The notes below the pieces were generated by a model that was not told the DNA's origin, ran no database searches, and worked only from the letters and a program-made list of their open reading frames with translations. Shown here piece by piece: positions 3,185 through 27,295 of a DNA stretch of 33,497 nucleotides. This DNA is from a virus: positions 1-33,497 of the IMG/VR virus record IMGVR_UViG_3300025137_000009. The stretch is one strand, 5' to 3'. A program made the translations under genes and the position numbers. Every line of letters begins with the position of its first letter. Positions within the stretch are counted from its first letter, which is position 1.

Positions 3185-5442
3185 TATGTACCTACCAATG
3201 CGTTAATTTCTAAGCCATCTTCGGTGGCTTCGTTAATAGCCTCTATGATTCGTCTTGCCCCTGTAGGGTCAATAGAGCCATCTACCGTTACGTTGATAGG
3301 TTGAGGTGCAGCCATTACTTCGTCCATAGGTTCAGCTTGTATTGGTGCGGAAGCCGCTGCCGCCGCTCCACCGCCACCGCCACCGCCAGCACCTCCAGAA
3401 GAAACAGATCCACCGCCAAACTTTTGTGCTTTGATCTTAGCTAATTGTGCCATACCAAAAGCTAATTCAACACCTGCCATAGCAGCAGCTAAAGGAGGAT
3501 TGGCAGCATAAGTAGCTCTCGCAAGCTGTACTGCTTTATATGTGTTTACAGCCGTATCAGCAGCAGCAGCCATTTGAGATATTCTAAACATTCCCTTGCC
3601 CATCCCGGCCATAGCCGCAGTTCTTTGAGCCAGAGTGCTTGTTATTTGCTTTGTTTGAGCAATTCCTGTTAGCTTTTCAAATTTTTGTTTAGCTAATGCT
3701 GCTTTAGCATCAATGTCACCTAGTTTAGCTTTATGTCTCAATTCCTCTTGCTCTGTAGCCTGGTTCTGCTCAGACAAAATATCCATTTTTACAGCGTGTT
3801 CTTCTTGTAATTTTGCAATCTTTTCTTCCCTGTAAATATCATCCGCTTCAACTTCACTCAACTTTCTCTGAAACTCAAGTGCAGCAACGGCTGTAGCGTG
3901 TTCAGTTCTTTTTTCTATAATTTGTTCAAACAGCAATGTTTCTGAATCTGCATTTGCCTTTTGCATTTCTAAAACTTGCAGTTCAGAAGCCATAATTGCA
4001 TTGTTAGTTTCTAATATGCTGGGAAGCTTATCAAATGCTACTGGAGCTTCTTCTGCCGCTGGCGCTGATGGTTGTGGTTTTAAAACTGTTCCTGTACCTG
4101 CTGGGGTTGGCGTTTGGCCAGACGTCAATAATGCAACACCGCTTAAAGGCTGCTCTGTAGCTGGTGTAGTAAGCCCAGCCATATCTGCAACAGACTGACC
4201 ACCAAAAAGTGGTTGTAAAAGCTGTGGATCTTGCAGTTCTTGTAATTGTGCTTTTAGTCTTTTAAATTGCTCCTCTGCCTGTGTAAATGCTGGATTACTA
4301 AATGCAGCGTTGCCATATGTTTCTAACAAGCTCTCCATTTGCTCTTCAGCTCTTTTAATTGAAAGCTCTAAAAGATCCGCATCACTCATAGCGCCTGTAA
4401 ATATATTCGATGTTTTTACTTTTTCTGTAATTTTTGCAAGAAGCGCTGTTGCTTCATTTGTCCTATCAGCAATGAAGGATGCAAATCCTGACTCTTGTAT
4501 AAATGCAATTCTTAAAAGGTCTGCTTGCTCTGCTAGACCATCAAAAGCCCCGGCTAGACCCTTACCAGCACCAGCACCTGCGCCACCTAGAGATGCTTCT
4601 AATTTTTTAATAATAAAATCTTGAGCGGCCATCTTGTCGCTAGCAAGTAGCATACCGTCAATCATATCTCGCTCTGTTGCAGTAAATATAACACCTGCGC
4701 GAGACAAGCTAGTCAAATTATTAACAGGGTCTTCTATCGCTTTACCTAAAGTCTTAGCTGCACTTGCGGCAGTAATACCCATAACTTGAGCTAAATCTTG
4801 GGCTAAAACAGTTGTACGTTTAAACTGATCACCAGCAATAGAGCCAAAAGTAAGAAGTATTCCCTCTGCTTGTCTAATGTCGCCAGCAGAAGCAAGCGTA
4901 GCTATACCTACTTCAGTAGCTAAATCTTGTAGCTCTTGGGAAGTTAAACCAACACGATGCCCGGTTGTCTCAAGCATCTGCTCAAGCTGTAATACCTGTG
5001 CTTCAAATTCTGAAAATGTATCTAATGCGCTTTTAAGAGCAAAACCAAAGGCAGCAAAACCAGCACTAGCAATTAATCCTAGTGGGCCAATTCGTGCTAA
5101 ACCAGTTGCTATAAATGAAAGTCGGCCTGAGACACCGTTAAGTGGGCCTTGAAGTGTTGCGGTAGCTGTCGCAGCGTTCTTAAAAGACTTAGCTAATTTT
5201 TCATTAGCAGTAGTAGCCTTTTTTGTTTCTTTTGTATTATCTTTCTTGCCTTTTGTGTCCTTACCTGTTGCGTCAGTGCCTTTCTTTGTTTCTGTGTTTG
5301 TCTTTTTCTTCTGAGTGCCTTCGTCCTTAATGGCCTTAGCGGCTTTACCAGACTCTTTGGCAAGCTTTTTAAGCTCTTCATTAGCTTTTTTAAGTTGAGC
5401 AGTGTTAGCCTCAAATATCAGTCTTGCGATTGTGTCTGCCAT
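3184..5442 (-). CDS. Tail tape measure protein
   Basis: At 752 residues this is the longest gene wholly inside the window and sits just after the frameshifted chaperone, the standard place for a tape measure. Residues 1-95 are charged, Lys/Thr-rich and probably helical. Residues about 108-145 are hydrophobic (SFIATGLARIGPLGLIASAG) and could enter membrane on DNA ejection. Residues 475-580 are predicted coiled coil, 600-675 an Ala-rich helix, and 680-705 a Gly/Ala-rich linker. At roughly 0.15 nm per residue it implies a tail near 110 nm (inference). Its start lies 25 bases inside the end of the frameshifted chaperone frame. Confidence 0.9.
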   Translation of the reverse strand: MADTIARLIFEANTAQLKKANEELKKLAKESGKAAKAIKDEGTQKKKTNTETKKGTDATGKDTKGKKDNTKETKKATTANEKLAKSFKNAATATATLQGPLNGVSGRLSFIATGLARIGPLGLIASAGFAAFGFALKSALDTFSEFEAQVLQLEQMLETTGHRVGLTSQELQDLATEVGIATLASAGDIRQAEGILLTFGSIAGDQFKRTTVLAQDLAQVMGITAASAAKTLGKAIEDPVNNLTSLSRAGVIFTATERDMIDGMLLASDKMAAQDFIIKKLEASLGGAGAGAGKGLAGAFDGLAEQADLLRIAFIQESGFASFIADRTNEATALLAKITEKVKTSNIFTGAMSDADLLELSIKRAEEQMESLLETYGNAAFSNPAFTQAEEQFKRLKAQLQELQDPQLLQPLFGGQSVADMAGLTTPATEQPLSGVALLTSGQTPTPAGTGTVLKPQPSAPAAEEAPVAFDKLPSILETNNAIMASELQVLEMQKANADSETLLFEQIIEKRTEHATAVAALEFQRKLSEVEADDIYREEKIAKLQEEHAVKMDILSEQNQATEQEELRHKAKLGDIDAKAALAKQKFEKLTGIAQTKQITSTLAQRTAAMAGMGKGMFRISQMAAAADTAVNTYKAVQLARATYAANPPLAAAMAGVELAFGMAQLAKIKAQKFGGGSVSSGGAGGGGGGGAAAAASAPIQAEPMDEVMAAPQPINVTVDGSIDPTGARRIIEAINEATEDGLEINALVGT

Positions 5443-19962: not shown

Positions 19963-20243
19963 ATTTACCTAATTTATCTGAATCTGAAATGATGAGTCTT
20001 TTCTTAAAGCAAGAGCAGGAAAGCGCGATAGGTGATATGCACTCTCAGCAGTCATATCGTGAGCATTTAGACCATGAGGCTTTATCCGTTTCTACAGCTA
20101 TGTGGGGCGAAGTTCTGGCAGAAAAAGGATTTAAAGCAACTCGACAGGATCTGGAAAATGCTTTTGCTGTTTTTTTTGATCTTGTTATGGCTAAACATAA
20201 ATCTGATTCGTCAGACGAACTACCGTTTCCACTGGAGGATTAG
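19959..20243 (+). CDS. Hypothetical acidic protein
   Basis: A 94-residue acidic helical protein started by an ATGA overlap. It contains SESEMMSLFLKQEQESAIGD and FKATRQDLENAFAVFFDLVM, and ends DELPFPLED. The acidic hydrophobic tip resembles SSB-type interaction tails but is not a clear match. No family recognised. Confidence 0.6.
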   Translation: MNLPNLSESEMMSLFLKQEQESAIGDMHSQQSYREHLDHEALSVSTAMWGEVLAEKGFKATRQDLENAFAVFFDLVMAKHKSDSSDELPFPLED

Positions 20244-20245
20244 TA

Positions 20246-20404
20246 ATGAGCAATTCAATGGGCGAACTTTATGTAGTATATGTAAATGGTGAAGAAAAAG
20301 GCTACTACACCATGTTAGATGCCGTAAGGATTGGTGAATGGTTTAGAGTCAACGATCCAGAAAAAACAGTAGAAGTCATTGAAACAGAAACGAGTGATTA
20401 TTAA
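20246..20404 (+). CDS. Small hypothetical protein
   Basis: A 52-codon gene with GGAGG 7-8 bases before its ATG. It reads MSNSMGELYVVYVNGEEKGY and ends VEVIETETSDY. Its beta-rich, Tyr- and Glu-rich composition suggests a single small sheet. It ends one base into the next start (TAATG). No family recognised. Confidence 0.6.
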   Translation: MSNSMGELYVVYVNGEEKGYYTMLDAVRIGEWFRVNDPEKTVEVIETETSDY

Positions 20405-20535
20405 TGGCTATCTATACTTGTGAAAACTGTGATCAATTCAAGGATGACGATTGGTCACCTTGCACTGCAACTAAAAATTTAATTTGGGTCTGCGAAGAAT
20501 GCTTGCCTGAAGTGGAGGAAGAAGAAAATGAATAA
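20404..20535 (+). CDS. Small zinc-ribbon-like protein
   Basis: A 43-codon gene starting by TAATG coupling. It has CENC at residues 6-9 and CEEC at 30-33, with a further Cys at 20, the arrangement of a minimal zinc ribbon, then an acidic tail (EVEEEENE). It overlaps the ERF gene by 8 bases, so it may work with recombination or replication. Function unknown. Confidence 0.6.
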   Translation: MAIYTCENCDQFKDDDWSPCTATKNLIWVCEECLPEVEEEENE

Positions 20536-21163
20536 ATCAGAAAGTATTGCCAATCTTGCGTTAGCACTCAATCTGGCGCAACAACAAATGGGTGGCGCTG
20601 TTAAAGACAGCACAAACCCCTTCTTTAAATCATCTTATGCCGACCTGACATCTGTCATCAAGGCAGTCAAAGACCCCTTATGTGCAAATGGCCTTAGCTA
20701 TGTCCAGTTTCCAATTACCAGCACTGGCGGTAACGGTATCGGTGTTGAAACAGTGTTGATGCATAAAAGCGGTGAGTGGGTAAGTAATGAGTTTACTATG
20801 CCAATGGTTAAGTCAGACCCTCAGGCAGCGGGCGCTTGCCTCTCGTATGCTCGCAGGTATGGATTATCCAGCGTCCTGGGGCTTCCAGTTGCAGATTCGG
20901 ATGCAGAGGCCGCGATGATGCGGGGAAAGCCAGTTGAGCCTTCAGAGGCCGAGCTATGCGCTGAAGCAGTATTTAGAAACAAGCCATCAGTTGATGCGGT
21001 TGTAAGTTATTTAGCTGACCCAACCCCTGAGAACGTACTGTTAGCTAAGGAAGCATTTGGCGAGATCAGTGAAGATGATCAAAGGGCTATGTGGAAAGCG
21101 CCAACAAAAGTATCTACTGCTCCATTTACAACTGAAGAGCGAAAGCTTTTGAAGGGGGCGTAA
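20528..21163 (+). CDS. erf: ERF-family single-strand annealing recombinase
   Basis: A 211-residue protein with landmarks of ERF: NPFFKSSYADLTSVIKAVKD near residue 30, NGLSYVQFPI near 55, TVLMHKSGEWVSNEF near 75 and DPQAAGACLSYARRYGLSSV near 98. ERF proteins form rings on ssDNA and anneal complementary strands; in P22 it circularises or recombines incoming DNA. The C-terminal third (about 135-211) is variable. Its TAA overlaps the next start codons as TAATGTG. Confidence 0.85.
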   Translation: MNKSESIANLALALNLAQQQMGGAVKDSTNPFFKSSYADLTSVIKAVKDPLCANGLSYVQFPITSTGGNGIGVETVLMHKSGEWVSNEFTMPMVKSDPQAAGACLSYARRYGLSSVLGLPVADSDAEAAMMRGKPVEPSEAELCAEAVFRNKPSVDAVVSYLADPTPENVLLAKEAFGEISEDDQRAMWKAPTKVSTAPFTTEERKLLKGA

Positions 21164-22464
21164 TGTGGATATTGCCGAAAACATTAATCCCCTTAGAACC
21201 ATCAGCCTCTGCTATGGATATGGCGGTGTCGAGCTTGGAATCGAGTCAACAGGACAACCTATTAGAAACATCCTTATTAGTGAGATCGAAGCCTATCCCG
21301 TTGCAGTCGCACTTAAGAAAATGCAAAAGGGACAAATGGTATCTTGCCCTGTGTGGACAAATCTCAAAACATTGGATGCCAGACCCTACAAGGGATGCGT
21401 GGATTTACTCACAGCCGGGTTTCCTTGTCAGCCATTCTCAGCCGCAGGAAGTCGAAAAGCCGACAAAGACCCAAGACACTTATTTCCAGACATCCTTAGA
21501 ATTATCGATGAGTGCAGACCAGGAAGAGTCTTCTTTGAAAATGTCGAAGGAATCATCTCAGCAAAAATGCATGACAACACCCCAGTATTGCTCTATGTCC
21601 TTAGAACATTGGAAAGCCGAGGTTACCGAGCAGCGTGGTCTATATTCAGCGCGGAAGAATGTGGCGCACCTCACCGAAGAAAAAGAGTCTTTATCATGGC
21701 CGACTGCAAGGACTTCCGATGCGGAGGGGGGCAGGATAGACACAGTGATAACGGATCAGGGATTCAAGTCGATCAGGAAGACCAGCAATCAATTCTTTGG
21801 GGCGAAGCTCAGGGATGCGGTGGAAACCTCGGAAGAGAAGAAATGGTTGACACCATCGACAGTGGACATCGACAGAACGCCAGAAGGGATGGAGAAGCGC
21901 AAGCAATACAGGGAGAGCATCGGTCGGAAGTATGTCGAGGGATGCCTGACGGAGCAGGTGAAGAATCAAGAGCGAAGCCAGAAATGGGCTACGCCACGAA
22001 CTTGCTCGGCAATGACCGCAAACATAACCGAGAATACTGCCAAAGCGAAACACCCCAATCTGGAAACTCAGGTAGCCAAACAACAGTCTTGGCCGACACC
22101 GACAGCGAGAGATCACAAGGGCGTGAGCGGATCAGGAAGGCAGGAAAGGAAGGGCAATCCATCGGACACTCTGCCGAATGCAATACACAATCTATGGCCG
22201 ACACCAGATGTAGCGCAAGCACAGAAGGTCAGCAACAGGCCGAACTACGGCCAACTGGGGTTGGCGAATCATCCACAAGTACATGGCAAGGAAGTGGATC
22301 GAGAGCCGATGAAGAAAGACCGCGCTGGCCAGCCGGGGCAGGACAATACCAGCATGAATGGGAAGAACCAAGAGTCATATGGAAAACTGAACAGTGCGTG
22401 GGTGGAGCAATTGATGGGTTTACCCACAGGGTGGACAGACTTAGACTTTTGGGAAATGGAGTAG
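21163..22464 (+). CDS. Long overlapping frame within the methyltransferase gene
   Basis: A 433-codon frame, one base offset from the methyltransferase, open over 95 percent of it with an ATG sharing the same ribosome site. Its second half has a recurring W-x-T/P-T element (WPTARTSD at 179, WLTPSTVD at 228, WATPRT at 275, WPTPTARD at 310, WPTPDV at 345) and ends LNSAWVEQLMGLPTGWTDLD. As I recall, phage-associated proteins with PTPTA and LNP-WVEWLMG-P-GWT signatures exist in databases. Either it is a real second protein or the residue pattern follows from the repeats in the methyltransferase frame. Confidence 0.4.
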   Translation: MWILPKTLIPLEPSASAMDMAVSSLESSQQDNLLETSLLVRSKPIPLQSHLRKCKRDKWYLALCGQISKHWMPDPTRDAWIYSQPGFLVSHSQPQEVEKPTKTQDTYFQTSLELSMSADQEESSLKMSKESSQQKCMTTPQYCSMSLEHWKAEVTEQRGLYSARKNVAHLTEEKESLSWPTARTSDAEGGRIDTVITDQGFKSIRKTSNQFFGAKLRDAVETSEEKKWLTPSTVDIDRTPEGMEKRKQYRESIGRKYVEGCLTEQVKNQERSQKWATPRTCSAMTANITENTAKAKHPNLETQVAKQQSWPTPTARDHKGVSGSGRQERKGNPSDTLPNAIHNLWPTPDVAQAQKVSNRPNYGQLGLANHPQVHGKEVDREPMKKDRAGQPGQDNTSMNGKNQESYGKLNSAWVEQLMGLPTGWTDLDFWEME

Positions 22465-22535
22465 TACCAGCAACAGCAGCAGTAGCATGGAAAACTTTAA
22501 GCAATCAATTAACTAAAGGGGTTTGTTATGAGTAA
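21165..22535 (+). CDS. C5 cytosine DNA methyltransferase
   Basis: A 456-residue enzyme that transfers methyl from SAM to cytosine C5. Motif I is SLCYGYGGVELG (14-25), motif IV GFPCQPFSAAG with catalytic Cys88, motif VI FFENVEGI (123-130), motif VIII APHRRKRVFIMAD (168-180) and motif X RLLGNGVVPATAAVAW near the end. Residues 180-400, the target-recognition part, are hydrophilic and carry a repeated (M/L)ADT element. Start is GTG after AAGGGGG. Probably protects phage DNA from restriction. The region is visibly more GC-rich than its neighbours. Confidence 0.88.
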   Translation: MDIAENINPLRTISLCYGYGGVELGIESTGQPIRNILISEIEAYPVAVALKKMQKGQMVSCPVWTNLKTLDARPYKGCVDLLTAGFPCQPFSAAGSRKADKDPRHLFPDILRIIDECRPGRVFFENVEGIISAKMHDNTPVLLYVLRTLESRGYRAAWSIFSAEECGAPHRRKRVFIMADCKDFRCGGGQDRHSDNGSGIQVDQEDQQSILWGEAQGCGGNLGREEMVDTIDSGHRQNARRDGEAQAIQGEHRSEVCRGMPDGAGEESRAKPEMGYATNLLGNDRKHNREYCQSETPQSGNSGSQTTVLADTDSERSQGRERIRKAGKEGQSIGHSAECNTQSMADTRCSASTEGQQQAELRPTGVGESSTSTWQGSGSRADEERPRWPAGAGQYQHEWEEPRVIWKTEQCVGGAIDGFTHRVDRLRLLGNGVVPATAAVAWKTLSNQLTKGVCYE

Positions 22536-22749
22536 TAAGCAATGTGCAAGAATTATGGAATATCTTGAAAGTGGTAAAAGACTTGATAGAAAAAAAGCTT
22601 ACATTGATCTTGGAATAATGAATGTTACGGCCAGGATTACTGAGTTGAGGGCTGAAGGAATTCCAATATTGACTGAGATGAAGACGGTCAAGAACCGATG
22701 GAATGAGAAGTGCCGGGTGGCAGATTGGTATTTAGAAAACGATAGTTAG
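22528..22749 (+). CDS. Winged-helix DNA-binding protein
   Basis: A 73-residue protein reading QCARIMEYLESGKRLDRKKA, then LGIMNVTARITELRAEGIPI, the pattern of small phage winged-helix proteins whose recognition helix is T-A-R-I-x-E-L-R. It overlaps the methyltransferase end by 8 bases, and its AAAGGGG ribosome site lies inside that gene. It may regulate this operon. Confidence 0.75.
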   Translation: MSNKQCARIMEYLESGKRLDRKKAYIDLGIMNVTARITELRAEGIPILTEMKTVKNRWNEKCRVADWYLENDS

Positions 22750-22772
22750 GCATCGCCTCCCTTTACGCTGCC

Positions 22773-22812
22773 GCTGGTCAGTTAAGCCTAACAACCAGCA
22801 CCTAATTTTTTT
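22773..22812 (+). terminator. Terminator-like hairpin in the rightward operon
   Basis: GCTGGT and ACCAGC form an outer stem, GTTA and TAAC an inner stem with AGCC loop, followed after six bases by seven T residues. It sits in a 73-base gap after the winged-helix gene. Partial termination would lower expression of the genes to the right. TTAGGC/GCCTAA (22746/22786) offers an alternative pairing. Confidence 0.55.
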
Positions 22813-22822
22813 GGAGATTATT

Positions 22823-23014
22823 ATGTGGATTAGCTTAGATTTTCACCCTATGGACGATTATTTTATTGAAGATATTCATATCAATATGGATTTGATTGTT
22901 CATATGCACAGAAATGAAAACTTAACGGTCCTTACCGATATATGCGGTAATAAAGTTGAAGTGATACAGACTGTTGAGCAAATTTTTGAGGATATGAAAC
23001 GTGCAGTATCTTAA
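22823..23014 (+). CDS. Small hypothetical protein
   Basis: The ATG at 22823 has GGAG 8 bases upstream and gives 63 residues: MWISLDFHPMDDYFIEDIHI and a C-terminal helix QTVEQIFEDMKRAVS. The strand-strand-helix layout and the sentence-like VLTDICGNKVEV segment suggest a small alpha-beta fold. No family recognised. Confidence 0.6.
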   Translation: MWISLDFHPMDDYFIEDIHINMDLIVHMHRNENLTVLTDICGNKVEVIQTVEQIFEDMKRAVS

Positions 23015-23072
23015 AGGTCATTTAAACCACGACCCTGTTTGGCATAAGGGTCTAAAAAAGAGGAAAAAAAGT

Positions 23073-23339
23073 ATGGAACAGTATGATAATACCAATAAAG
23101 GCGTTTTGTTCAAAGAGCAGGGGCAGAAAGCTGAGGAATGGCATGACGATTATAAAGGCACGATTGATATTGAAGGTGTCGAATATTGGATTGGTGCAGC
23201 AGTTCGTAAATCAAAAGCTGGCGTACCCTACATGAAGTTAAATGTTCGTTTAAAGGAAAGTAAGGCGGCAGAGATTAAAGAAAATCTTAAAAAGCCAGAA
23301 CCTGCTGAGACTTTTCCTGAAGACGATATACCGTTTTAG
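23073..23339 (+). CDS. Putative single-strand DNA-associated protein with SSB-like tip
   Basis: From the ATG at 23073 (GAGG upstream) this is 88 residues; a GTG at 23001 would add 24. It begins MEQYDNTNKGVLFKEQGQKA, has DYKGTIDIEGVEYWIGAAVR and a conserved-looking KSKAGVPYMKLNVRLKE, and ends FPEDDIPF. The acidic DDIPF end is the hallmark tip by which SSB-type proteins recruit partners, and the short beta body fits an OB-like or DUF736-like fold. Position next to recombination genes agrees. Fold not proven. Confidence 0.55.
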   Translation: MEQYDNTNKGVLFKEQGQKAEEWHDDYKGTIDIEGVEYWIGAAVRKSKAGVPYMKLNVRLKESKAAEIKENLKKPEPAETFPEDDIPF

Positions 23340-23348
23340 GGAGGGGTC

Positions 23349-23822
23349 ATGGGTATTCTAGCTGAATGCGAACAAAAGATAAGCCACTTGAATAGCTATA
23401 AGTTCAATAGCAAGTTTAAGCCTCGCGTCAAAGATACAGACAATTGTGTTGGGTCTTACTTTCTATTTAAAGGTAGTAAAAGAAATCATCACCTGGCTCA
23501 AAGATCTGGAAAAAATGGTGAATTTAACATCATAGCGACAATACAGTCACTATCTACACTTGCAACAATGGTTGATATTTTGTGTGATGTTTTGTTAGAT
23601 AAAGACAGGGAGTTGGATTTTGAGTTAATGAGTCTTCAGGGTAAGCATAATTCCGAGGTTGGAGTAAAAGCCAAAGACTTGATGCTAGCCAATCAAAGTC
23701 AGTTGATACAGGAACATAATGCGATGACAGTGTCATTGGCTAACATAAAAGATAAATACCATATCTTAAAAGCTGAAAGGGCAAAAATGAAAGCTTATGT
23801 TAGAAGACATTTTAAAATTTAG
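23349..23822 (+). CDS. Hypothetical protein with helical C-terminus
   Basis: A 157-residue protein with GGGAGGGG before its ATG. Residues 1-60 are basic and Lys/Asn-rich (KFNSKFKPRVKDTDNCVGSY), and residues about 60-157 form long helices (LATMVDILCDVLLDKDREL, then LANIKDKYHILKAERAKMKA). No family recognised. The basic head and coiled tail would allow nucleic-acid binding as an oligomer. Confidence 0.6.
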   Translation: MGILAECEQKISHLNSYKFNSKFKPRVKDTDNCVGSYFLFKGSKRNHHLAQRSGKNGEFNIIATIQSLSTLATMVDILCDVLLDKDRELDFELMSLQGKHNSEVGVKAKDLMLANQSQLIQEHNAMTVSLANIKDKYHILKAERAKMKAYVRRHFKI

Positions 23823-23831
23823 GGTGTTCAA

Positions 23832-24296
23832 TTGAAAGAATTTATAGTCAATCCAATCAACGAAGGTACAGTACAAGATTTCTTGCACCAACTTGAAGAA
23901 ATCTTGAAGTTAAAAGAACCTGTAAAGATTACTATGAAGAAGTATACGCAGTCTTCCCTGCCCCAGAAGGCCCTGTTGCATATCTGGGTAAGGGAATACG
24001 CTGCATATCATTATAAGAAATCAATCAAAGAACTGTCAGATTCAGAACAAACAAACATGAAGGTCACTTTAAAGCAAAGAGCATACAAAGAGTATGGCTG
24101 GGACTTTCTGACTAAAAAAGTAACTAACGTAGAGACAGGCATATCGGCCCATATATTAGAATCAATATCTGAATACGATAAGGGCGAGTGCTATATGTTT
24201 ATGGAATTCATGCAGGATTATTGTGCAGCCAAGGGTTTAATTTTAGAAAGCTCTGGCGAGTTTAAGAGATTAAAAGATGAGTCAATGGGACAGTGA
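23832..24296 (+). CDS. Hypothetical protein, possibly NinB-like
   Basis: A 154-residue protein with a TTG start after AGGGTG. It has SSLPQKALLHIWVREYAAYH near residue 41, which recalls the NinB-type pattern in recombination genes (basic residues then a Gln-aromatic helix), and SEYDKGECYMFMEFMQDYCA near 112. NinB binds ssDNA and acts in recombination in lambda. The resemblance is partial and I could not confirm it. Confidence 0.5.
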   Translation: MKEFIVNPINEGTVQDFLHQLEEILKLKEPVKITMKKYTQSSLPQKALLHIWVREYAAYHYKKSIKELSDSEQTNMKVTLKQRAYKEYGWDFLTKKVTNVETGISAHILESISEYDKGECYMFMEFMQDYCAAKGLILESSGEFKRLKDESMGQ

Positions 24297-24453
24297 ACCA
24301 GTAAAAATTATCGATCATTTGCCTGCAACCCCGGCAGAACTTGAGCTATTACAGCTAGAGAAGCTGACTGAGGGCGAGCTTGAAATGGTTGGTTATACTT
24401 CAAGTAAAGAATTTTGGGATAGATACGGTTATGAGAAAATCAGAGAAGCTTGA
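24277..24453 (+). CDS. Small hypothetical protein
   Basis: A 58-codon gene overlapping the previous gene by 20 bases. It reads MSQWDSEPVKIIDHLPATPA then ELELLQLEKLTEGELEMVGY, acidic and helical, ending GYEKIREA. There is a weak ribosome site (AAGAG) inside the upstream gene. No family recognised. Confidence 0.5.
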   Translation: MSQWDSEPVKIIDHLPATPAELELLQLEKLTEGELEMVGYTSSKEFWDRYGYEKIREA

Positions 24454-24562
24454 AAAAGTAAACACATTATCAAGAAGTGAATTGAAAAGACAAAAAAAAA
24501 GAATAAGATCTTCATCAAGACAAGAAGCAAAAAAACAAATTATTCATGAAGGGGGAGCGTGA
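24431..24562 (+). CDS. Very basic tiny protein before the TGT-like gene
   Basis: The ATG at 24431 gives 43 residues, mostly Lys, Arg, Ser and Glu: LSRSELKRQKKRIRSSSRQE then AKKQIIHEGGA. It ends with TGA directly followed by the ATG of the next gene, so it is probably coupled to it. Its GGGGGAG end is the next gene's ribosome site, which could alone explain the open frame. Moderate support. Confidence 0.4.
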   Translation: MRKSEKLEKVNTLSRSELKRQKKRIRSSSRQEAKKQIIHEGGA

Positions 24563-25333
24563 ATGATACATTATCATGGGGGGCAGTTAGGCGGTGGGGC
24601 AGATAATTCTCTGTCAATGCAGGGTAAACACGCTTTTATTTCTTATACAGCGACAAAGAATTGCTACACGCAACTGGCTGCCGAGTTGTGTCAAAGCTTT
24701 GCAATAGACAACGGCGCTTATTCTCTGTGGCGGTCAGGAAAAGAATATAGTGTTGAGGGTTATGTTGAATATTTATTGAATTGGTATCGACACCCAGGAT
24801 TAGATTTTTATTTATTGCCAGATGTCATTGATGGTGGTGAAGAGGAAAATATTAAAATTCAAGCTGAGTTTTTTGTTTATGCACAACATCATAAAAGATT
24901 GATGGACTTAGCCGTACCAGTCTGGCATTTAGATGAAAGTCTTGATCACCTGCAATATATGAGTGTTTGTTATAAAAGAATTGCTATTGGAAGCGCTGGA
25001 GACTACGCGGTTGTTGGCAACAAAAAGTGGTGGCATCGCATGGCTGAAGCCATGGAGGTTGTTTGTGATGAGGATGGCCGACCAAAATGCAAGCTTCATG
25101 GACTAAGAATGCTTGATAATACAGTTTTTTCACATCTGCCTTTATCTAGCGCAGATAGTGCTAATGTTGCTAGAAACATCGGAATTGATAAAGCCTGGGA
25201 CAAAGCGCCATACGCGCCAGCTAGTAATCGCACCAGGGCATTAGTGATGATGGAAAGAATAGAACGCCATGCATCTGCTGCAAGATGGAATGGTACAAGC
25301 TTTTCAAAGCCTAACTACGAGCTATTTGGATAA
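24563..25333 (+). CDS. TGT/DpdA-superfamily-like transglycosylase
   Basis: A 256-residue protein I recognise as a phage family resembling tRNA-guanine transglycosylases. Landmarks: MIHYHGGQLG at the start, FAIDNGAYSLW with Asp49 (like the DSGG substrate Asp of TGT), LLPDVIDGG with Asp87/Asp90, IGSAGDY (142-148), and LRMLDNTVFSHLPLSSADSA then NVARN, where Asp198 sits where TGT has its nucleophile Asp. DpdA proteins of this superfamily swap guanine in DNA for 7-deazaguanines. No queuosine-pathway gene is present, so a host precursor would be needed. Ribosome site GGGGGAG. Confidence 0.55.
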   Translation: MIHYHGGQLGGGADNSLSMQGKHAFISYTATKNCYTQLAAELCQSFAIDNGAYSLWRSGKEYSVEGYVEYLLNWYRHPGLDFYLLPDVIDGGEEENIKIQAEFFVYAQHHKRLMDLAVPVWHLDESLDHLQYMSVCYKRIAIGSAGDYAVVGNKKWWHRMAEAMEVVCDEDGRPKCKLHGLRMLDNTVFSHLPLSSADSANVARNIGIDKAWDKAPYAPASNRTRALVMMERIERHASAARWNGTSFSKPNYELFG

Positions 25334-25337
25334 AAAA

Positions 25338-25604
25338 ATGACCAATGAAGAAGTAGAAAACATGATTTTAGACTGTCTAAAAGAGCGTGACGGGCAAGGC
25401 AGCACCAGCATAATAAGAAACATAATGCTGGATAAAAACACTGTAGGCCGGGCGCTAAAAAGATTAGATCATAGGAATGCTATCTATGCAGCTAAAGGCG
25501 TGGGTAGCACATACAGAGGGCAAACCTGGTATATCCAAAGGAACAAGGATGCGCCAGCGTATAGGCTCAAGACCAGAAAATGGGACTTGGACCTATTTAC
25601 TTAA
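25338..25604 (+). CDS. Small winged-helix protein
   Basis: The frame is open from 25269 inside the upstream gene, but the ATG at 25338 gives a sensible 88-residue protein. It reads MTNEEVENMILDCLKERDGQ, then DKNTVGRALKRLDHRNAIYA, a winged helix with the recognition helix near residues 33-46 and a basic C-terminus. It ends the rightward arm, overlapping the lysozyme stop by 3-4 bases in tail-to-tail orientation; no terminator hairpin is visible. Confidence 0.6.
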   Translation: MTNEEVENMILDCLKERDGQGSTSIIRNIMLDKNTVGRALKRLDHRNAIYAAKGVGSTYRGQTWYIQRNKDAPAYRLKTRKWDLDLFT

Positions 25605-26011
25605 CCATCAGCGAGCATATTGGCAACCCTGATACTGCGATTACCTACCTGCCGGGCGTAGTTAGAATCAAGTAATTCAGTGCCAGCTAATTCAAATAAA
25701 CCCTGCTCAATATAGGAAATAGTCTTTTTGAACTGCTTAAACTTAGACAGGCCCATATTAAAGACCAGGTTTATAATGGCCTCTCTACGCTTCTCAGTGA
25801 GGTCAGAGAACCAAGCGAACTCAGCCATACATTCACCTGCTACTCTGGCTATATCGTTCTTTAAGAGGTATCTAGCCTCTTCATCAGTGATTCCGACAGA
25901 AAGATTTCGACCCACTCCAATCGTGGGATGCCCCATGCTGCAATGGTACATTTTCAATTCTAAGCCTTCATCGATAATAAGCTGATCTGTCAGCCGTTCT
26001 AGGTTAACCAA
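25601..26011 (-). CDS. GH24 endolysin (T4-type lysozyme)
   Basis: Cuts the glycan strands of peptidoglycan at lysis. The TTG at 26011 follows GGGAGG with a 7-base spacer, giving 136 residues; no signal peptide is seen, so a holin is needed. The catalytic region reads IIDEGLELKMYHCSMGHPTI with the glutamate in DEGL and the Thr in PTIGVG. The position of T4 Asp20 is Cys (HCS), a substitution common in GH24 phage enzymes and known to keep activity in T4 lysozyme. C-terminal helical part has AIINLVFNMGLSKFKQFKKT. Confidence 0.85.
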   Translation of the reverse strand: MVNLERLTDQLIIDEGLELKMYHCSMGHPTIGVGRNLSVGITDEEARYLLKNDIARVAGECMAEFAWFSDLTEKRREAIINLVFNMGLSKFKQFKKTISYIEQGLFELAGTELLDSNYARQVGNRSIRVANMLADG

Positions 26012-26030
26012 GGAAATACCTCCCAAAATT
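26008..26030 (+). repeat. Dispersed 22-bp repeat, copy D
   Basis: CCAAGGAAATACCTCCCAAA across the lysozyme start. The minus strand provides GGGAGG and the TTG start, just as at terL. Confidence 0.7.
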
Positions 26031-26031
26031 T

Positions 26032-26505
26032 TTAGTCTTTAGCGTGACTCGCACCAAAGTAAAAGGCACTTATGCCTGAAACAAGTCCACCGAGATACCC
26101 CAAGACAAGAGAAACAATAGTATCGCTGTTAGCGTCAGGGGGCTGAACAGTAACGAGAAAGATATACCCAATGAAGCCAAAAAGACTAACCAATCCAAAT
26201 ACTCTTGGTGTCCAATCTCCCTTGTGAGCTTTCCTAGCATCCTGAACATCAGCAGTCTCCAAAGCAAAAATATCAACTTCCATCTCTGCAAGTTTAGCTT
26301 CAAATTCTAATTCTGCCTTTTTTATTTCAAGTAATTGCTCTGGAGATGCTGTCTGCATCGCAGTAGAAATAGATTTGGCATCGTTTTTGCAACCTAGTAC
26401 CGCTGAAATTGCTTGTGCCGCAGTTCCCCCTAGAGGACCAGCTAAAGCAGTACCCAGAGTAGGGGCAACAGCACCAATAATGCCTTTTAATGCACCAAAG
26501 TTCAT
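26032..26505 (-). CDS. Holin, 3TM type
   Basis: A 157-residue protein next to the endolysin. It opens with a Gly/Ala-rich hydrophobic stretch (about 3-37, LKGIIGAVAPTLGTALAGPL), has a charged helical middle (55-95, LEIKKAELEFEAKLAEMEVD) and two clear membrane segments at about 102-119 (RVFGLVSLFGFIGYIFLVTV) and 131-150 (IVSLVLGYLGGLVSGISAFY). It matches the GTA_holin_3TM layout that includes gene-transfer-agent holins. It would form the inner-membrane holes that release the endolysin. Confidence 0.8.
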   Translation of the reverse strand: MNFGALKGIIGAVAPTLGTALAGPLGGTAAQAISAVLGCKNDAKSISTAMQTASPEQLLEIKKAELEFEAKLAEMEVDIFALETADVQDARKAHKGDWTPRVFGLVSLFGFIGYIFLVTVQPPDANSDTIVSLVLGYLGGLVSGISAFYFGASHAKD

Positions 26506-26514
26506 TTTTGACTC

Positions 26515-26640
26515 CTATTTTCTTACAAAACGCCTAAGTGAAGGCACTCTCACAGCTTTGACAGGTTCTGCTTTTGGCTTTGCAGCTTCCTTTTTTTTCA
26601 CAGGTTCTTTTTTAGATGGAGTTTTTACTTCATCATTCAT
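26515..26640 (-). CDS. Tiny basic protein
   Basis: A 41-codon gene overlapping the previous one as ATGA. It reads MNDEVKTPSKKEPVKKKEAA and then VRVPSLRRFVRK, built of Lys/Pro/Ala/Glu repeats with a basic tail. Disordered; no family recognised. One of six short basic genes in this block. Confidence 0.5.
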   Translation of the reverse strand: MNDEVKTPSKKEPVKKKEAAKPKAEPVKAVRVPSLRRFVRK

Positions 26641-26732
26641 TTCTTTTTACCTTTTTTGACTGGCTTTTTTTTGCCCTTTTTCATTGGTGGGCGACCCATT
26701 TTTGATCCGTATGTACCTTTACCTTGTGGCAT
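26637..26732 (-). CDS. Tiny Lys/Gly-rich protein
   Basis: A 31-codon gene with TAATG overlap to the gene before and ATGA to the one after. It reads MPQGKGTYGSKMGRPPMKKG then lysines. GKGTYGSKMGRPP-type tiny proteins recur, as I recall, in marine phage genomes. Function unknown, perhaps nucleic-acid binding. Confidence 0.5.
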   Translation of the reverse strand: MPQGKGTYGSKMGRPPMKKGKKKPVKKGKKK

Positions 26733-27001
26733 TACTTTTTCCTCTTGGTTGGTTTTTTCTTAGCTATATCTGCATCAGCCTTTCTAGCACCGCCTTTACC
26801 TGAAACAAAACTATTAACCCGGCCCATAGCCCATGCAGCCATAGGAACATTACGAGAGCCACCACTTAAATAAGCGCCTTGACCCCTGCGATATACCTTT
26901 TCAAGCTGACCAGCAGTAAACTTACTGCCCTCTGCTTTTTTCTTTAAAGTCGCCTTAACGCTTGCGCTTAGGGGTTTTCTTGGTGGTTTTTTTGCGGCCA
27001 T
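26732..27001 (-). CDS. Small basic conserved phage protein
   Basis: The ATG at 27001 follows GAGGG by 9 bases and gives 89 residues; an earlier TTG is less likely. The core FTAGQLEKVYRRGQGAYLSG then NVPMAAWAMGRVNSFVSGKG recalls the DUF5824/DUF5872-type small phage proteins; I cannot tell which. Ends in a KKKPTKRKK basic tail. It overlaps the upstream gene by 47 bases. Confidence 0.6.
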   Translation of the reverse strand: MAAKKPPRKPLSASVKATLKKKAEGSKFTAGQLEKVYRRGQGAYLSGGSRNVPMAAWAMGRVNSFVSGKGGARKADADIAKKKPTKRKK

Positions 27002-27176
27002 CTTGTGCAACCCTCGATTTCTGTACTGCTTTTACGTCAATAAATTCACCACGTTTGTATGCGGCAGATGTTTTTTTAATTTCAGCGGCCTTTTTAGATT
27101 TGTTTTTAGCGCCAGATAGATACTTTTTAGCAACGCCTGTTTTCTTATCTTTAGCCACCTTTCTAAACTTAGCCAT
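26955..27176 (-). CDS. Small basic conserved phage protein
   Basis: The ATG at 27176 has GGTGA 7 bases upstream and gives 73 residues. It reads MAKFRKVAKDKKTGVAKKYL then SGAKNKSKKAAEIKKTSAAY, a pattern repeated across small late phage proteins in aquatic phages. The C-terminus is KKTTKKTPKRKR. Likely DNA- or RNA-binding by charge; role unknown. Confidence 0.6.
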   Translation of the reverse strand: MAKFRKVAKDKKTGVAKKYLSGAKNKSKKAAEIKKTSAAYKRGEFIDVKAVQKSRVAQDGRKKTTKKTPKRKR

Positions 27177-27295
27177 TACCACTTCACCTTAAATAAAAAA
27201 GTTGAGGTTTTAGATAGTGAGAGAGTAAATTTTATGCTCTTGCTCATGCTATTCCTAAATTAATACCTTTGCTAGCGTGTACCTCAGCTAAAACT

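Follow-up and report, generated by a model that had tools for sequence, protein, structure and literature searches.

A compact gene for a proposed DpdA-type transglycosylase on an optional cassette of a marine-type phage that probably borrows its 7-deazaguanine from the host

Can a phage that carries a gene resembling the DNA guanine transglycosylases, and no recognisable genes for making a 7-deazaguanine, exchange guanines in its own DNA, and where would the base come from? The question is raised by a gene in the 33.5-kb stretch of DNA analysed here (33,497 nucleotides; hereafter the window), a linear IMG/VR virus record that is possibly a fragment. The window belongs to a tailed phage whose minus strand encodes portal, major head, terminase and tape-measure proteins; judged by the portal protein, Oceanospirillum phage vB_OliS_GJ44 (39%) is the closest isolate, and the window phage is a marine-type bacterial virus. 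On the plus strand, an Erf-like gene, a C5 methyltransferase gene and a NinB-like gene lie in this order upstream of the gene under study. The features at the locus are:

23832 to 24296, plus strand: NinB-like recombination gene (phrog_72, E 5.3e-11), left neighbour of the cassette delimited below
24380 to 24562, plus strand: basic 60-residue frame of the ORF list (Pfam-scanned) that ends at the transglycosylase start, a possible leader that may be non-coding
24563 to 25333, plus strand: compact gene assigned to the DpdA/TGT transglycosylase superfamily, 256 residues (PHROG 887, TGT fold match, silent-only changes against sister contig L001)
25338 to 25604, plus strand: helix-turn-helix gene (MarR-like; Pfam MarR E 2.8e-4, under the cut-off), immediately 3' of the cassette, whose start in the ORF list, 25269, probably lies too far upstream

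The transglycosylase frame begins with ATG, just 3' of a GGGGGAG stretch. Scans for promoters and terminators stayed at chance level. An earlier note had pointed to three landmarks in the protein, FAIDNGAYS, LPDVIDGG and SSADSANVARN, and all of them were found, at residues 46-54, 85-92 and 195-205, respectively. In alignments of 26 to 33 homologues, which share only 29-56% identity with the 256-residue protein, the core residues of these landmarks are constant or almost constant, so the landmarks are not a product of chance. The sister contig L001 is 96% identical to the window over 9.8 kb, and within the transglycosylase gene the two differ at five bases; each of these is a third codon position and leaves the protein unchanged, indicating that the frame is under selection. 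Judged by these sequence comparisons, the frame is a real, conserved and selected gene.

Which family does the protein belong to? PHROG 887, named queuine tRNA-ribosyltransferase, matches residues 1-240 with an E-value of 1.5e-58, whereas no model of Pfam, NCBIfam or PADLOC matches the protein, and phmmer and hmmsearch against PDB sequences returned nothing meaningful. Since neither sequence nor direct profile comparison links it to E. coli TGT, the connection to TGT comes through the fold and through DpdA. An AlphaFold2 model built from a 33-row alignment (pLDDT 87.7, pTM 0.86), which replaced a weaker one from 26 close sequences (pLDDT 76), predicts eight strands alternating with helices. 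In the structural comparison with TGT that the earlier note had suggested, the best solved matches were bacterial and archaeal TGT (Z 15.9-15.5, 3.3-3.9 Å, about 230 residues), with the top one at Z 15.9 and 3.8 Å over 233 residues. Foldseek ranking by E-value alone put generic TIM barrels ahead of TGT, and it was only the second look with VIA-align that separated TGT, together with Cap10 of the type IV CBASS system (PDB 9ntn), from other barrels. In a viral structure library, several relatives were named queuine tRNA-ribosyltransferases, and protein R9TGF0 of Vibrio phage nt-1, a phage with a DpdA2, was also matched (E 1.9e-4).

Cap10 has a TGT-like fold and a score equal to that of TGT for the window protein (Z 15.6); with the weaker model it even came first (Z 14.9). 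It acts on the N-terminus of a protein, and proteins of the QueC family participate in such chemistry. The phage protein might by analogy handle a deazaguanylated protein, perhaps to undo or block a Cap9- or QatC-based host defence. We consider this very unlikely, given that TGT and Cap10 are tied in score, that identity to Cap10 in the structural alignment is about 10%, and that the relatives of the window protein are linked by sequence to DpdA and by neighbourhood to QueE, queD-like and Vut_1 genes for making or importing the base.

The nearest characterised relatives of the window protein are phage DpdA enzymes. The DpdA of CAjan is matched at 26% identity (E 2e-12; profile probability 97.4%) and that of 9g with E 5e-7 (profile 96.8%), and Salmonella phage 7-11 has a DpdA that is matched more strongly than that of CAjan (30%, E 6e-24). 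With the 9g and CAjan enzymes the window protein shares the TGT superfamily, aligned D49, D198 and H179, and the PxxH, K(L/V)HG-type and SxDS motifs, and its family too is linked to queC, queE and queD-like genes; it is, however, shorter (256 versus 306-317 residues), only 23-26% identical, unlike them at the N-terminus (MIHYHG), and encoded in a window where pathway genes were not found. The 7-11 protein is similarly compact (234 residues) and a lone gene without a pathway, but it is distant within the family and comes from a 90-kb phage whose modification has been measured. Members of PHROG 887 at 33-48% identity occur in lambdoid and other temperate phages (BTP1, SfI, SPN3UB, HK106, AH07, Epa33), where they are annotated as queuine tRNA-ribosyltransferase or hypothetical; their neighbours differ from those in the window, and no pathway gene is annotated in the regions inspected.

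Five residues, D49, D87, H122, H179 and D198, are present in every row of the 33-row alignment, in which the other sequences are 29-56% identical. Three of them can be placed against known enzymes:

24707 to 24709, plus strand: D49 (IDNGAYS), counterpart of 9g D72 and CAjan D63
25097 to 25099, plus strand: H179 (KLHGLRML), aligned with H196 of 9g DpdA
25154 to 25156, plus strand: D198 (SADSAN), counterpart of 9g D215 and CAjan D206

By motif order D49 would be the base-binding aspartate of TGT (D102 in Zymomonas mobilis), and from the alignment we propose D198 as a nucleophile like TGT D280. In the predicted model the two residues sit where strands 3 and 8 end, as putative counterparts of D102 and D280. 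H196 of 9g DpdA is, according to Hutinet 2019, the conserved histidine that DpdA2 lacks (PMC6884629); the window protein has it as H179, and differs in this from the DpdA2 of nt-1. Fold, kinship with phage DpdA and the conserved D49, D198 and H179 together support the earlier assignment: by sequence and model, the protein belongs to the transglycosylase superfamily. DpdA3 and DpdA4, with which a comparison had also been proposed, are reportedly subfamilies of Cui 2023.

The database names and the fold matches, which are tRNA-guanine transglycosylases, would also suit a phage-borne TGT that modifies tRNA and alters host translation, leaving phage DNA as it is. This is distinctly unlikely in our view: the CxCxxC motif of the TGT zinc site (CxCxxC...H) is absent from all 13 aligned members, 9g and CAjan DpdA included, the protein has 256 residues against 375 in E. 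coli TGT, to which it shows no sequence match, and its nearest characterised relatives, in CAjan, 9g and 7-11, act on DNA (PMC6884629).

If the substrate is DNA, the source of the base has to be considered. The earlier note had described the gene as standing without a 7-deazaguanine pathway, and this holds for the 33.5-kb window: profile searches for FolE, QueD, QueC, QueE and YhhQ/Vut_1 gave no match, and a Pfam scan of 47 other open reading frames revealed no pathway gene, in a linear contig that may be incomplete. The base for a DNA modification, if there is any, would therefore be the host's. With 76 of 182 viruses, phages that have DpdA only outnumbered every other group of 7-deazaguanine phages; host-made intermediates have been suggested as their possible supply, and their modification status has been called difficult to predict (PMC6884629). 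Deletion of dpdA abolished all dPreQ0 in CAjan, and 9g dpdA alone in E. coli led to 790 dPreQ0 per 10^6 nucleotides in plasmid DNA (PMC6884629). Phage 7-11, with DpdA only, carries a trace level of 50 dADG per 10^6 nucleotides, and DNA of Mycobacterium phage Orion, which has a lone DpdA and a host without the pathway, is unmodified (PMC6884629).

The neighbourhoods of relatives bear on this question. Among 69 clusters of relatives at 90% identity, drawn from viral and prophage loci with 9g and CAjan left out, 27 have a queC, queE, queD-like or Vut_1 gene within 2 kb, often overlapping. In 30 control loci retrieved by way of the Erf gene, a narrow phage group that was not deduplicated, there was no preQ0-related gene at any distance (Fisher p 1.2e-5). 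Four relatives at 51-55% identity (L002-L005) have the order TGT-queC-queE, in which TGT and queC share 4 bp; QueC of L002 scores 172.6 bits against an NCBIfam cut-off of 150.3 and that of L003 138.6, under the cut-off, while the QueE proteins reach 292-307 bits against a cut-off of 240. The order is TGT-queE in L115, L117 and L118, queE lies just upstream of the transglycosylase in L123, L125 and L133, and in another lineage a queD-like gene follows TGT. Vut_1, which we take to be the family of the YhhQ preQ0 transporter, is encoded near the gene in other relatives, and neighbours gave Pfam matches above cut-off to Vut_1, PTPS and QueC. The queD-like (PTPS) proteins beside the transglycosylase (L008, 3216-3581, and about 20 similar ones) have Ser in place of the active-site Cys in CxxxHGH, and the three tested score under the QueD cut-off. 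The close relatives L111, L112, L116, L119 and L122 have no preQ0-related gene in the available stretch. In a tree, the window falls beside the queC-queE relatives; owing to long branches (0.82 for the window, 6.27 for 7-11) and midpoint rooting, it is compatible with gain as well as with loss of the partner genes. What is new here is that the compact clade is tied to partial pathways, namely QueE alone, QueC with QueE, a queD-like gene, Vut_1, or none in the available stretches.

Homologues occur at three further loci. The cyanophage Pam5 of Pseudanabaena (L179, 3989-5468) has a homologous transglycosylase with a Vut_1 gene two genes later. The homologue of Pantoea phage AH07 (L082, 4682-6756) shares 4 bp with the end of a gene that is annotated as ParB-like. 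A ParB-like protein is also encoded in bacterial dpd clusters, so the one in AH07 may be a partner of the homologue. In Pseudomonas phage Epa33 (L084, 7001-11468) the homologue is followed directly by a C5 methyltransferase and, after it, by an ASCH-domain protein and a DUF1643 protein within 4 kb.

Comparison with near-identical phages revealed that the gene comes on a removable unit:

24432 to 25340, no strand assigned: presence/absence cassette of 909 bp with the transglycosylase gene, not present in L180 and L181

On both flanks the contigs L180 and L181 match the window at 94-97% identity, and they lack exactly this segment. By blastn, window 20039-24431 and 25341-27190 abut at position 4424 of L180, and the empty site of L181 is at 4171; the helix-turn-helix gene has an orthologue in L180 (78% identity) right at the empty site. 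There is no copy of the cassette elsewhere in the 29-kb L180 record, and no target-site duplication is evident at its ends. These contigs provide a natural empty site for the cassette, which is new as an observation. The cassette, present in the window phage and L001 and cleanly absent from L180 and L181, probably brings a benefit in only some of the hosts or encounters. A separate segment of about 105 bp (window 27191-27295) is missing in both L001 and L180, where the flanking matches overlap by 15 bp, as if it lay between short direct repeats.

The polymorphism, the Orion precedent and the pathway genes not found in the window would also suit a genuine DpdA that is idle in a host without preQ0 synthesis, as part of an inherited cassette that is being lost. 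This reading is unlikely, given the purifying selection evident in the silent-only differences between the window and L001 and the complete conservation of the motifs.

The earlier note had further placed the gene in one operon with a C5 methyltransferase and suggested modification of two bases:

21165 to 22535, plus strand: C5-cytosine DNA methyltransferase (PF00145, E 3.4e-35), a neighbour kept in L180 and L181, which are without the transglycosylase

The methyltransferase gene is real, on the same strand, and ends 2.0 kb upstream with about six genes between, but a functional link to the transglycosylase was not borne out. It is retained where the 909-bp cassette is absent, so the two DNA-modifying genes segregate independently, and its proximity in relatives is no closer than random placement; of the 14 clusters with Dcm, 8 have it at a distance of up to 2 kb, close to the 54% of the sequence that is in reach by chance, and an operon link was rejected. 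The proposed two-base unit is thus not supported, though one genome could still carry both marks.

The methyltransferase region has a peculiarity of its own. A second plus-strand frame of 433 residues (window 21163-22464) overlaps almost the whole gene, and phage C75C1 matches both frames nearly full length (35.0%, E 1e-46, and 35.8%, E 2e-70). Of the 12 differences from L001, eight are at third positions of the overlapping frame, which are first positions of the methyltransferase frame, and in its C-terminal part the hidden frame is similar to the C-terminal part of other phage methyltransferases. This suggests, as far as sequence can tell, a dual-coding gene pair. We found no paper on an overlapping methyltransferase frame, and the pair may be more unusual than the transglycosylase itself.

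Taken together, we put at roughly three in four the probability that the gene encodes a compact DpdA-type phage DNA guanine transglycosylase that uses a host-derived 7-deazaguanine, most likely preQ0. After replication, the enzyme would cleave guanine from phage DNA, with D198 as nucleophile and D49 holding the base, and would put a 7-deazaguanine, most likely preQ0, in its place. The base would be taken from the queuosine pathway of the host, since the phage, as far as sequenced, makes no 7-deazaguanine. Modified guanines would blunt host restriction enzymes, and the swap is probably a way to hide the genome from them. Indirect support for the part of the earlier claim that concerns a host precursor comes by analogy, from the que and Vut_1 neighbours of relatives and from 9g dpdA acting alone, and the window phage would fit the described DpdA-only class that appears to borrow its base. 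Counted against this role are the unmodified DNA of Orion, the mere traces in 7-11, the Foldseek ranking, the Cap10 tie, and the Ser and sub-cut-off scores of the queD-like proteins; the readings as a tRNA enzyme, a Cap10-like protein or an idle DpdA nevertheless fit the neighbourhood and the DpdA kinship less well than the DpdA reading does.

More speculatively, the compact clade might be a modular, host-complementing system, in which a mobile transglycosylase cassette is joined by only the step that the host lacks or limits, be it QueE, QueC with QueE, a queD-like gene, a Vut_1 importer or none, and the inserted base could vary with the partner. We regard this as doubtful; if it were true, phages with QueE only could insert 7-carboxy-7-deazaguanine, the QueE product, and not always preQ0.

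DpdA-only phages and PHROG 887 are already known, and the window gene adds a member. The que and Vut_1 neighbours of the compact family are a reason to expect real DNA modification, and the presence of the family in such well-studied lambdoid phages as BTP1, SfI and HK106 makes this testable in laboratory phages. Comparison of the window and L001 with L180 and L181 indicates that this trait is gained and lost as a unit of 0.9 kb, independently of the methyltransferase.
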